Of a DNA stretch of 64,000 nt, positions 38,168 to 49,891 are shown one piece after another. The notes beneath the pieces are model-generated. The model did no database searches and was not told the DNA's origin. It was given only the letters and a program-made list of their open reading frames with translations. The stretch spans positions 1 through 64,000 of the forward strand of contig NZ_JACZFR010000029.1 in NCBI RefSeq assembly GCF_014904815.1, read 5' to 3'. Positions within the stretch are counted from its first letter, which is position 1. Each line of letters begins with the position of its first letter. The DNA comes from Microbulbifer taiwanensis. GTDB lineage: Bacteria > Pseudomonadota > Gammaproteobacteria > Pseudomonadales > Cellvibrionaceae. The position numbers were made by a program, and so were the translations under genes.

Positions 38168-39367
38168 ATGGAGATTGAAATGTCGACTCAGTTGCACAGC
38201 CTACTGAAGAACAGCGGACTGGACCCCTTGAAGGTGGCACTGTCATCGGTGCCGGAACTTTTTTCCATGCCGGACGAAAAGCTGCTGGAATTCAAGACAG
38301 GGCTGATCCACGAGGCCTTCTCCCATCACTACGCGAACAACCCTTTTTTCCGCTCCGCGTGCGACGGCAAGGGCGTGACGCCCGACAGCATCTCAACGCC
38401 GGCGGACCTGGTCAAAATACCCCTGATCCCCATCGAACTGTTCAAATCGAATGACAGCCACAAGCTGCTGTCCATCAGCCTGCGCGACGTCGAACTGGAA
38501 ATGCGCAGCACCGGTACCTCCGGTATCCCAAGCGTATCCCGCCGCTGCGCGAAAACGATCGACAATGCGGTGCTGGGCATCTACGCGATGTATCGCGAGT
38601 TCCTCAAGATCTCCAAGGGCGCTGGTCTCTATCTCTGTCCCTCGACCGAGGAAATCCCTGAGATGGGTATGATCAAGGCACTCAACATGCTTGCAGGCCT
38701 ACTCGATACCCACCGGTTCATGGTCCGGCAGGAATCGTTCAAGCCGGAAGAGGCGCTGGCACAGCTCGAAGAGTGGAATCAAAAGTTCAACCGCCACCTG
38801 ATCGGACCGCCGTTTCTGATCAACCGTTTCATCAGCTACCTCAAGGCCACCGACACCCGCATCAAGCTCGACAAGAACAGCTACATCATCACGCTCGGTG
38901 GCTGGAAGCGCTTCTCGGGCCAGATGCTGTCGCGGGCCGAGTTCAATCGCGAGTGCGTCGAGTACCTGGGCGTAGAGGAAAGCCAGATTCGCGATATCTA
39001 TGCGCTGGTCGAGTCCAACGTCGTGGCCATCGACGACGAACACGGGGTCAAACACGTATCCCCGTTCATTCACTTCTCCGTGCGCGATCCCAAACAACTG
39101 GACCGCGAGGTCGAACCTGGGGAGACCGGTCAGCTCGCAATTCTCGATCCGCTGGCCCGTTCCACACCCGGCTTCATGCTTACCGAGGACCTGGTGCGCC
39201 TGCTGCCGGAACCGAGCCGCTCCGGTCGCAGCGGGCAGCGCATGCAGTACGTCATGCGCTTACCCGAGTCGAAAGAGTTCGGCTGTTGTGCGGTGAACCT
39301 GGACAAACGGCTGGAAGACCTTGATGCCGAGCAGGCCGCCAGCGGCAGCTGCCCGGTCGTCGCCTGA
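38168..39367 (+). CDS. LuxE-like acyl-protein synthetase (PaaK/LuxE adenylate-forming family)
   Basis: 399 residues. The phosphate-binding loop STGTSGIPS (about 114-122) marks the ANL-type adenylate-forming fold, and the overall layout and C-terminal region match LuxE. In lux systems LuxE makes an acyl-adenylate and passes the acyl group to a Cys near its own C-terminus. Here a Cys-Cys pair at 373-374, in EFGCCAVNLDKRLE, is in the matching place. There is no LuxC reductase or luciferase gene, so the acyl group must go elsewhere. Two ATGs (38168 and 38180) both have ribosome-binding sites. First gene of the operon. Confidence 0.85.
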   Translation: MEIEMSTQLHSLLKNSGLDPLKVALSSVPELFSMPDEKLLEFKTGLIHEAFSHHYANNPFFRSACDGKGVTPDSISTPADLVKIPLIPIELFKSNDSHKLLSISLRDVELEMRSTGTSGIPSVSRRCAKTIDNAVLGIYAMYREFLKISKGAGLYLCPSTEEIPEMGMIKALNMLAGLLDTHRFMVRQESFKPEEALAQLEEWNQKFNRHLIGPPFLINRFISYLKATDTRIKLDKNSYIITLGGWKRFSGQMLSRAEFNRECVEYLGVEESQIRDIYALVESNVVAIDDEHGVKHVSPFIHFSVRDPKQLDREVEPGETGQLAILDPLARSTPGFMLTEDLVRLLPEPSRSGRSGQRMQYVMRLPESKEFGCCAVNLDKRLEDLDAEQAASGSCPVVA

Positions 39368-39395
39368 TCGTTGCCGGCAAAGGGGAAGCCAGCGC

Positions 39396-39776
39396 ATGTA
39401 CAACGACATCATCATCGACAACTTTTCCGACCCGGCCCACGTCGGCGACATCGACGGACCGGAATACCAGTACGAAATCGGCAACCCGGTGTGCGGGGAC
39501 CGGATACGCATACAGATCAGCGCCACCGGCGGACGGGTCGACAGCGCCCGCTTCAGGGCCTGGGGCTGCGCCACTTCGGTGGCGACGGCCAATATTTTCT
39601 GCGCCTCGCTCGAGAGACTGGTGCTGGCGCGTCTCGGCGAGCGCAGTGACAGTGAGATCGAGGCCATGCTCGGCGAGCTGGAACCGTCACAGTACCACTG
39701 CGTCGAGATACTGCAGCAGCTGCACCGACGGCTGGTCGACCTGGCGGGCGAAGACTGCCGGGAGGCCACCACATGA
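39396..39776 (+). CDS. IscU/NifU N-terminal-type scaffold protein
   Basis: 126 residues. The three scaffold Cys and the conserved Asp are present: GNPVCGDR (Cys33, Asp35), WGCATSVATAN (Cys58) and YHCVEIL (His101, Cys102). The 44-residue spacing between the second and third Cys fits IscU, not SufU, which has a longer insert. The LPPVK motif that IscU uses to bind the HscA chaperone is replaced by LEPSQ, so it probably works outside the housekeeping ISC machine. An extra Cys69 is unusual. Its end overlaps the desulfurase gene by 4 bp. It may assemble Fe-S clusters for a dedicated client or relay sulfur. Confidence 0.88.
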   Translation: MYNDIIIDNFSDPAHVGDIDGPEYQYEIGNPVCGDRIRIQISATGGRVDSARFRAWGCATSVATANIFCASLERLVLARLGERSDSEIEAMLGELEPSQYHCVEILQQLHRRLVDLAGEDCREATT

Positions 39777-48370: not shown

Positions 48371-49162
48371 GTGAAGATCCCCGTTGACGACGATATAAGC
48401 CTCCGGATTGCCACCACGACGTCATTCGAACCACTGTTGCAGCGCGACCCGCGAACCGTCTTCACCACCGTCAGCAAGGCCGAGCAGAGCAGGTATCGCT
48501 CAATCGTCAACCGGACGGCTGGCCTGCACTTTCTGCTCGGGCGCTATATGCTGCGTCGCGCCCTGTCCGCCGAGAGCGGATCCGGTATCCCGCCCGCGCG
48601 CTGGGAGATCGCCGCGGACGGCCACGGCAAGCCGAGGGTTTTGAACCGGGAGGCGGCTTCGGTACGCTTTAGTATTTCCCATAGCGGTACTGCGGTCGCC
48701 ATTGCGCTCAGCCGGACCCATGACCCCGGTCTCGATCTCGAACCACTGGCCCGGGATCACGGCGCAGGCCTCGCCGCCAGGCATCTGCTCAGCCCGGCGC
48801 AGTGCGACCAGTTGCGCCGTGTACCCGGCGCTGATCGCGACGCGCTGCTGGCGCGGGTCTGGTGCATCAAGGAAGCCGTGTCGAAGGCGTGCGGCCTGGG
48901 TCTCCGGCTGCCCTTCCCGACGCTTGAGTTCGACCTGATGTGCCTCTGTAACGCGGATCCGGCGGGCTGGTTAGAATGCAGGGTGCGGGAATTGGGCCGT
49001 TTCCAGTTCAGCCTCCACACCTTGGCACGGCGCTACCTGCTCTGCGTGGCGGTGACGTCGCCGGTGCCACCCGGCTCGGCCCGGATTGCACTGAAACCCT
49101 TCAAACCGCAGCCAGGCCGCACCCGGGACACGGCGTCGAAGACAATGATTGTGCCGCTGTGA
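48371..49162 (+). CDS. Sfp-type 4'-phosphopantetheinyl transferase
   Basis: 263 residues. Magnesium and CoA-binding motifs are FSISHSGTAVAIALS, GLDLEPL and RVWCIKEAVSKACG (the W-x-x-KEA signature). It converts apo-ACP to holo-ACP. GTG start. A dedicated transferase means the operon does not depend on AcpS for its carrier protein. The C-terminal 40 residues are basic and extend beyond the usual Sfp fold. Confidence 0.92.
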   Translation: MKIPVDDDISLRIATTTSFEPLLQRDPRTVFTTVSKAEQSRYRSIVNRTAGLHFLLGRYMLRRALSAESGSGIPPARWEIAADGHGKPRVLNREAASVRFSISHSGTAVAIALSRTHDPGLDLEPLARDHGAGLAARHLLSPAQCDQLRRVPGADRDALLARVWCIKEAVSKACGLGLRLPFPTLEFDLMCLCNADPAGWLECRVRELGRFQFSLHTLARRYLLCVAVTSPVPPGSARIALKPFKPQPGRTRDTASKTMIVPL

Positions 49163-49207
49163 TATCACCGGCAGGGGCGTACTGCCCAGACCACCAATAC
49201 AGGATTA

Positions 49208-49891
49208 ATGATGGACGTACTCGAATACATCAGGGAAAAAGAAAGGTCCCTCAGGACCCGAATCAACAACTTCGATCTGAAAAACACGTCCGACACGCAT
49301 TTGCGCCAGCTGTCCTATTTCATCAGTCACTCGCTGAACAATACGCTGAACAATTCCTGGGTTTCGAAAATCCACCTGTTCTTCGATTCGAGCAGTGACC
49401 GCGAGCTGCAGGGTGTCAAGAATCCCAAGGTTATCGCCTTCTACCGGGAGTGGCAGGCGCGTATCGACCAGGAAGTGTTCCTCGGTGACTGGGTGGCGAT
49501 AGACCAGTCTCGTATCGACCGTTTTGCTGAGGTGACCGGCGACCGCCAATGGATCCATACCGATCCGGAGCGCGCGCGGGCCGAATCGCCGTTCGGCGGC
49601 ACCATCGCCCACGGCTTCCTGATCCTGTCCCTGCTGCCGGAACTCACCGATACCGTCAATCCGAAAAAACCACCCTACCCCAAAGCCCGGATGGTCGTGA
49701 ACTGCGGGCTCGACCAGGTGCGCTTTCCCTATCCGGTCAAGACCGGCAGCCGGATCCGCGCCTGCACGACACTGAAGTCCCTGGTGCCGTCCAAGCGCAG
49801 CGTGGAAATAGTCAACCAGATCCAGGTGGAGGTCGAGGGTTCCAACCGTGTCGTCTGCGTCGCCGACAGCGTGTTGAAACTCTACTTCTGA
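49208..49891 (+). CDS. MaoC-like hydratase/dehydratase with N-terminal extension
   Basis: 227 residues. The hot-dog domain starts near residue 90 and has the hydratase pair Asp112/His117 in [16 protein letters not shown], followed by [18 protein letters not shown]. It would add or remove water at an enoyl or 3-hydroxyacyl thioester. The N-terminal 85 residues are helical and match no family known to me; they could bind the ACP. Last gene of the operon; its end overlaps the converging czcA gene by 10 bp. Confidence 0.87.

Follow-up and report, generated by a model that had tools for sequence, protein, structure and literature searches.

What would an operon make that joins genes for fatty acyl activation with a sulfur-handling pair and an export route? 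The question is raised by positions 38168-49891 of a 64,000-nt stretch of Microbulbifer taiwanensis (contig NZ_JACZFR010000029.1; "the window" here means the whole stretch), where an earlier note had proposed that eleven gene families act as a unit. Our comparison shows a conserved core of six genes, encoding a LuxE-like synthetase, an IscU-like protein, a NifS-like desulfurase, a fatty acyl-AMP ligase (FAAL), an acyl carrier protein (ACP) and a flavoprotein. We propose a mobile biosynthetic cluster in which the core produces an acyl metabolite that carries sulfur and is secreted, a reading that we regard as about evenly balanced between right and wrong.

The locus set comprised 33 loci, 32 from public genomes found with LuxE as bait and one from a Priestia plasmid (14 Priestia plasmid records carry LuxE, of which one, L044, was opened). 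Five or six core genes lie together in 31 of them. The remaining two are incomplete: one (L043) has only a LuxE fragment, followed by an open reading frame (ORF) that by eye resembles a transposase and then by the contig end, and the other (L033) stops after FAAL. LuxE is present in all 33 loci, IscU, NifS and FAAL in 32 each, the ACP in 31 (30 of them detected by tblastn, that of Priestia through its annotation and Pfam) and the flavoprotein in 30. The order LuxE-IscU-NifS-FAAL-ACP-flavoprotein is kept in 29 loci, that is in all except the two incomplete ones, the Priestia plasmid with the order FAAL-flavoprotein-ACP-LuxE-IscU-NifS, and an otherwise intact locus without the flavoprotein (L026); a search for the flavoprotein across the L026 genome, run without a positive control, gave no match. 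For the other operon genes the counts are 20 loci for MMPL, 18 for the LolA-like protein, eight for this barrel, four for MaoC and one for Sfp. Since many loci stop about 10 kb past LuxE, 15 of the 33 were extended by a further 6-9.5 kb, and no additional copies of Sfp or MaoC were found; a genome of the same genus as the window, G014, carries both. The set of eleven genes as a unit was rejected on these counts, and only the six core families remain of it.

The cluster is rare and patchy: it occurs in one of 36 genomes of the same genus and in three of 369 genomes of the class including its own, and in the phylum set two of 398 genomes, again including its own, reach a subfamily-level LuxE score, with seven others at 166 bits or less. 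The cluster LuxE is also carried by nine of 30 genomes of one genus (that of G350), which from its sequence match is probably Xenorhabdus. Going by their titles, the host records include Marinobacterium, Shewanella, Photobacterium, Alteromonas, Pseudoalteromonas, Pseudomonas, Cellvibrio, Lysobacter, Xenorhabdus, Azohydromonas, Pseudoduganella, Curvibacter, Deefgea and Actibacterium, with one record labelled Nostocales, and in the Gram-positive Priestia the core is located on a plasmid. DNA of Marinobacterium sedimentorum is 77% identical to the window over 38162-49353, up to the end of the stretch compared, and DNA of G014 is 74% identical over 38158-49913, ending near the stop codon of the last gene. 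Both similarities begin within 10 bp of the LuxE start codon, and thus the grouping is more than chance. Genes of the CusA/CzcA family sit on opposite sides of the cluster in G014 and in the window, showing that the cluster is one unit whose neighbours differ between genomes. Between the sensor kinase gene and LuxE, a stretch of 704 bases (37464-38167) has a GC content of 45%, compared to 61-63% around it, and may mark an insertion boundary. Distance matrices of the core proteins correlate at 0.87-0.97, a value that mixes shared descent with co-inheritance and was not used as proof. This is a real, conserved cluster family, and it is undescribed within the searchable literature: the claim of the earlier note that it is new holds for the literature searched, where no listed title describes it.

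The LuxE-like protein aligns over residues 41-374 with a solved LuxE (7xc6, 5.6e-32), with its FGCC opposite the KGCS of 7xc6, and scores 138.8 bits against the NCBIfam LuxE equivalog (cut-off 550). The vicinal cysteines (GCC) are present in 35 of 36 family rows and, the exception being the truncated L043, in 35 of 35 complete members. At the aligned site GCC was found in none of ten LuxE-like controls, nine of which were rechecked on the unaligned sequence, while the tenth (L046) contains no CC anywhere. A C-terminal CP tail occurs in 32 of 35 rows, and the AlphaFold model of the protein is PaaK-like (mean predicted local distance difference test, pLDDT, 76). The protein shares the ANL family with the LuxE of LuxCDE and has its GC site aligned with 7xc6; however, the operon contains neither LuxC nor LuxD, and the second vicinal cysteine and the CP tail are additions. 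A LuxE of the bioluminescence type was rejected because LuxC is missing from the operon.

The IscU-like protein forms a separate type. The genome of the window has an ordinary IscU elsewhere, which scores 178.7 bits against PF01592 (63.2 for the operon copy) and carries LPPVK, the motif with a chaperone role in ordinary IscU. This motif is missing in all 16 aligned operon-type proteins, of which 14 have PSQ and the others PAQ and PEQ, whereas C33, D35, C58, H101 and C102 are kept in all 16. A model of the operon-type IscU matched two of the 369 class genomes at 1e-25 or better, both times adjoining this LuxE; the third LuxE-bearing genome of that set is 58% complete and has no IscU match. In the genus of G350 the operon-type protein, at 175-183 bits, is found in exactly the nine of 30 genomes with LuxE, a few bases from it, while the ordinary IscU of all 30 scores 69-73 bits against the same model and no intermediate scores occur; these nine genomes share descent and are not nine independent events. 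Operon NifS and IscU belong to the same two families as IscS-IscU and have the same catalytic residues (NifS keeps K207 and C333), but this IscU is a LuxE-tied subfamily without LPPVK, and no other isc genes are among the eleven. The sulfur handling that the earlier note had read from this pair gains support from the dedicated subfamily beside an ordinary IscU elsewhere, and a sulfur relay from NifS via IscU to the acyl group is well supported by association.

The same pair might also be a private iron-sulfur (Fe-S) set that matures an Fe-S enzyme of the pathway, in which case the metabolite would have no added sulfur. The constancy of three cysteines and the aspartate in all 16 aligned IscU homologues would suit such a role, as would the closest solved relatives of the operon IscU, which are NifU/IscU proteins. 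However, Pfam finds no Fe-S domain among the six core proteins, the only CxxC among those of the window is in NifS, an ordinary IscU is available in the same genome and LPPVK is lost in the operon copy. We consider an Fe-S set unlikely.

On the acyl side, the best NCBIfam and solved matches of the FAAL are FAALs or FAAL-domain proteins, the NCBIfam ones below their cut-offs. Pfam detects neither a ketosynthase nor a peptide synthetase in the operon, in agreement with the fatty acyl and ACP pathway lacking both that had been proposed. A link between the acyl and the sulfur side comes from Pseudoduganella namucuonensis (L024, 11532-14480), where NifS (residues ~8-392 by Pfam and NCBIfam) and FAAL (~406-967) share one stop-free frame of 983 amino acids; if this is not a sequencing frameshift, it directly links the desulfurase to acyl activation. 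The flavoprotein matches the solved monooxygenase 4usr (1.7e-22) and reaches 117.6 bits with the NCBIfam model ArsO (cut-off 425). Since it is missing from the intact locus L026, it appears to be a tailoring step.

From these families a route to a sulfur-bearing acyl product can be drawn. FAAL would adenylate a fatty acid and load it onto the ACP, while NifS, which has its catalytic residues, would abstract the sulfur of cysteine, in the form of a persulfide, and pass it to the IscU-like protein. The LuxE-like enzyme would hold the acyl group as acyl-AMP or acyl-cysteine and exchange oxygen for sulfur, with the second vicinal cysteine acting as persulfide acceptor or resolving thiol, and a thiocarboxylic acid would be released. 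Two-cysteine thiolation enzymes are a model for such action of a cysteine pair. Release by LuxE would account for the lack of a thioesterase in the core (Pfam finds none among the eleven proteins). The flavoprotein would then oxidise the product, most likely on sulfur, and export would use the pump of the respective lineage, here MMPL, LolA-like protein and barrel. As to the two adenylating enzymes, LuxE may take the acid after its release, or a second acid. A flavin-dependent S-hydroxylase reportedly acts on a thiocarboxylic acid to give the acylsulfenic acid of sulfenicin, which is said to be a Streptomyces polyketide-peptide hybrid (Xue et al., Nat. Chem., 2025), and the operon flavoprotein could correspond to that enzyme in its role. 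We have moderate confidence in a thiocarboxylate-type secreted product, perhaps oxidised; an acylsulfenic acid is weakly indicated. The most specific version, in which IscU, recruited from Fe-S assembly, relays persulfide to the cysteine pair of LuxE for making free fatty thiocarboxylic acids and the flavoprotein S-hydroxylates these to acylsulfenic acids, giving a widespread, ThiS-independent family of reactive, metal-binding lipids, is improbable in our estimate. If the route is correct, a core present in several phyla would use a LuxE relative with a private NifS/IscU as a different way of placing sulfur on an acyl group, and it would be an example of IscU employed outside Fe-S assembly. 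The GCC of LuxE together with the operon-type IscU would then be a simple sequence signature for locating the compounds.

Several observations weigh against this route. The FxGxxxH fingerprint marks class B flavin monooxygenases (FMO), and the FMO-type histidine is present in only one of 31 flavoprotein rows (Priestia), the window protein having D instead; thus, S-oxidation by the flavoprotein is a guess. FAAL and LuxE both activate acids, and the route gives no reason for two such enzymes. IscU retains the aspartate D35, which is compatible with Fe-S assembly. Residues 370-399 of the LuxE-like protein, with the cysteine pair, have a pLDDT below 50, so that the geometry of C373-C374 is not fixed by the model. 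The shared frame of L024 may result from a sequencing frameshift, given that the NifS and FAAL genes overlap in several relatives. In addition, LuxE was the sole bait and was located via near-exact peptides, which skews the loci towards close relatives.

The chemistry proposed for the core has a counterpart in the PtmA3/PtmU4 cassette of thioplatensimycin, which, according to PMC6006322, turns an activated carboxylate into a thiocarboxylic acid by exchanging oxygen for sulfur, using a CoA ligase, a type III CoA-transferase and sulfur-carrier proteins. Routes of this type, to which PDTC, thioquinolobactin and yatakemycin also belong, resemble the core in leading from an acid to a thiocarboxylic acid. 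However, no CoA-transferase family is found among the eleven proteins, on which ground identity with the PtmU4 cassette was rejected, and the operon, to which this search was confined, contains no ThiS-like sulfur carrier. A second route is that of photoxenobactin E (Xenorhabdus, Vibrio), presented in PMC10915793 as a metal-binding thiocarboxylic acid of entomopathogenic bacteria and in PMC9396620 as the product of a yersiniabactin-like assembly line with a proposed off-loading by C-S cleavage. The thiocarboxylate routes found in print use either sulfur-carrier proteins (PMC6006322) or the proposed C-S cleavage (PMC9396620), and nine natural thiocarboxylic acids are counted as fully characterised as of 2024 (PMC10915793). 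The survey of Xenorhabdus/Photorhabdus clusters that covers photoxenobactin (PMC9177418) lists X. szentirmaii among its strains, a species that also carries the core (L032); its main text, searched by term, mentions neither cysteine desulfurase nor LuxE nor fatty acyl-AMP.

The pumps beside the core are of three unrelated kinds. The trio of MMPL, LolA-like protein and barrel, or an MMPL-LolA fusion with another barrel, is present in 17 of the 33 loci; in nine loci a single ORF matches MMPL as well as the LolA-like protein, and the barrel encoded after it is a different one (by Pfam, the fusion holds in L027, and DUF1302 is present in L022 and L027). All eight Xenorhabdus loci have instead an MFS-like and a membrane-fusion-like protein and an AraC-type regulator flanking the core, without an MMPL match (families Pfam-checked in L032, L037 and L039), and an ABC-2 permease lies near the core in the locus labelled Nostocales. 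The AraC-type family is found in 16 of the 33 loci (Pfam-checked in two). A core shared between lineages with swapped pumps suggests a secreted compound. The earlier note had favoured export to the outer membrane, with a single tailored fatty chain placed there by MMPL, LolA-like protein and barrel, and the 17 loci with the trio or the fusion would fit such a lipid. It does not agree with the MFS and membrane-fusion pair of Xenorhabdus, nor with a core in a Gram-positive host, and as a shared theme the outer-membrane lipid was rejected on the swapping of exporters. With exporters that depend on the lineage, a metabolite that is secreted is a better fit than an envelope lipid, which we regard as very unlikely.

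It might also be possible that the product is a soft-metal ligand, either a thiocarboxylate metallophore or a metal-sequestering lipid, serving metal resistance or uptake; such a use of the product would be compatible with the route proposed above. According to PMC10915793, both soft and hard metals are bound by thiocarboxylates. Metal genes are located in seven of 35 neighbourhoods (the 33 loci, the window and G014), namely in the window, G014, L024, L025, L029, L030 and L031. In the window and in G014 these are efflux genes of the CusA/CzcA family close to the cluster, joined in G014 by a CDF exporter; the other neighbourhoods have CadR-type regulators scoring above the cut-off directly after the cluster in L024 and L030, CopB and a multicopper oxidase near L025, an ArsR-type regulator and ArsJ near L029 and a heavy-metal ATPase near L031. 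For an independent family, CDF, two of 17 genomes (44 matches) have a gene no more than about 10 kb from the cluster, where the rough chance expectation is 0.3. However, these are seven of 35 neighbourhoods, two of them in one genus, chosen after looking; a family search with locus-derived queries found no such genes in the Shewanella, Photobacterium and Xenorhabdus loci, and genomic islands commonly hold metal genes. A metal role of the product is weakly indicated, and the ligand is a doubtful explanation, if a somewhat better one than the Fe-S set. In the window, the CusA/CzcA-family permease (1546 bits, cut-off 701) lies with adaptor and outer-membrane genes at 49882-55281, on the opposite strand directly after MaoC.

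The ORF list confirms that the operon has eleven genes on one strand. The intergenic gaps, in operon order, are 28, -4, 13, 20, -4, -4, -11, 4, 9 and 45 bp, so that the largest is 45 bp and four pairs overlap, as had been described. The family calls of the earlier note also hold: ten of the eleven are backed by Pfam, and for the remaining one the predicted structure is a beta-barrel that matches porins, although with a mean pLDDT of 70 its family is not fixed. None of the NCBIfam names contradicts these calls; the equivalog cut-offs are mostly unmet.

Genes of the operon in the window, with E-values for the Pfam matches.
Predicted product	Position	Strand	Basis
LuxE-like acyl-protein synthetase, ANL/PaaK fold, vicinal C373-C374	38168..39367	+	Pfam LuxE (PF04443), 3e-37
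IscU-like, operon-specific subfamily; C33, D35, C58, H101, C102 kept; EPSQY replaces LPPVK	39396..39776	+	NifU_N, 3e-17
NifS-type cysteine desulfurase; K207, C333 invariant	39773..40954	+	Aminotran_5, 3e-70
Fatty acyl-AMP ligase (FAAL)	40968..42677	+	AMP-binding, 9e-66; FAAL-type NCBIfam matches
Acyl carrier protein (ACP), LGLDS site	42698..42970	+	PP-binding, 3e-12
Flavoprotein, ArsO/FMO-related; listed start TTG, ATG one codon later	42967..44037	+	Pyr_redox_3, 4e-23
MMPL-family RND exporter	44034..46382	+	Pfam MMPL, 3e-42
LolA-like protein (PF17131)	46372..47169	+	Pfam LolA_like, 1e-52
Predicted outer-membrane beta-barrel	47174..48361	+	Structure model; without Pfam match
Sfp/AcpT-type phosphopantetheinyl transferase, accessory, lineage-specific	48371..49162	+	Pfam ACPS, 3e-12
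MaoC-like hotdog protein, accessory	49208..49891	+	Pfam MaoC, 8e-21

A scan for promoters stayed at chance level (three found, 2.5 expected). Upstream of the operon a two-component pair is located at 35392-37463, with OmpR/EnvZ as the nearest models, below their cut-offs.

Further observations were made in other loci. A transglutaminase-type protein, similar by eye in both cases, has a CDF-type exporter as well as the cluster in its vicinity in a same-genus gammaproteobacterium (L050, 9052-9795) and in Curvibacter (L075, 7613-8389). One Xenorhabdus locus (L037, 978-3308) has, at a distance of several kb from the core, an ORF that by eye resembles the iron transporter FeoB; five other Xenorhabdus loci contain relatives of it. 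The Priestia plasmid encodes, at 6435-6767 and 12793-13263, an AhpD-like protein near an arsenosugar-associated family (90.7 bits, cut-off 120) and a protein of the DinB superfamily; DinB relatives can act as thiol transferases. Among the LuxE-like controls, one from a Streptomyces plasmid adjoins an acyl-CoA reductase. A Streptomyces plasmid locus (L045, 4094-12552) contains genes for a YcaO-like protein, DUF692, an acyl-protein synthase of the LuxE family and an acyl-CoA reductase, and resembles a cluster for peptide modification that includes a Lux-type reductase. In one genus (L055-L059), open frames of 410-833 amino acids contain a LuxE-like part with a single cysteine in RGCGD and are possibly fusions.

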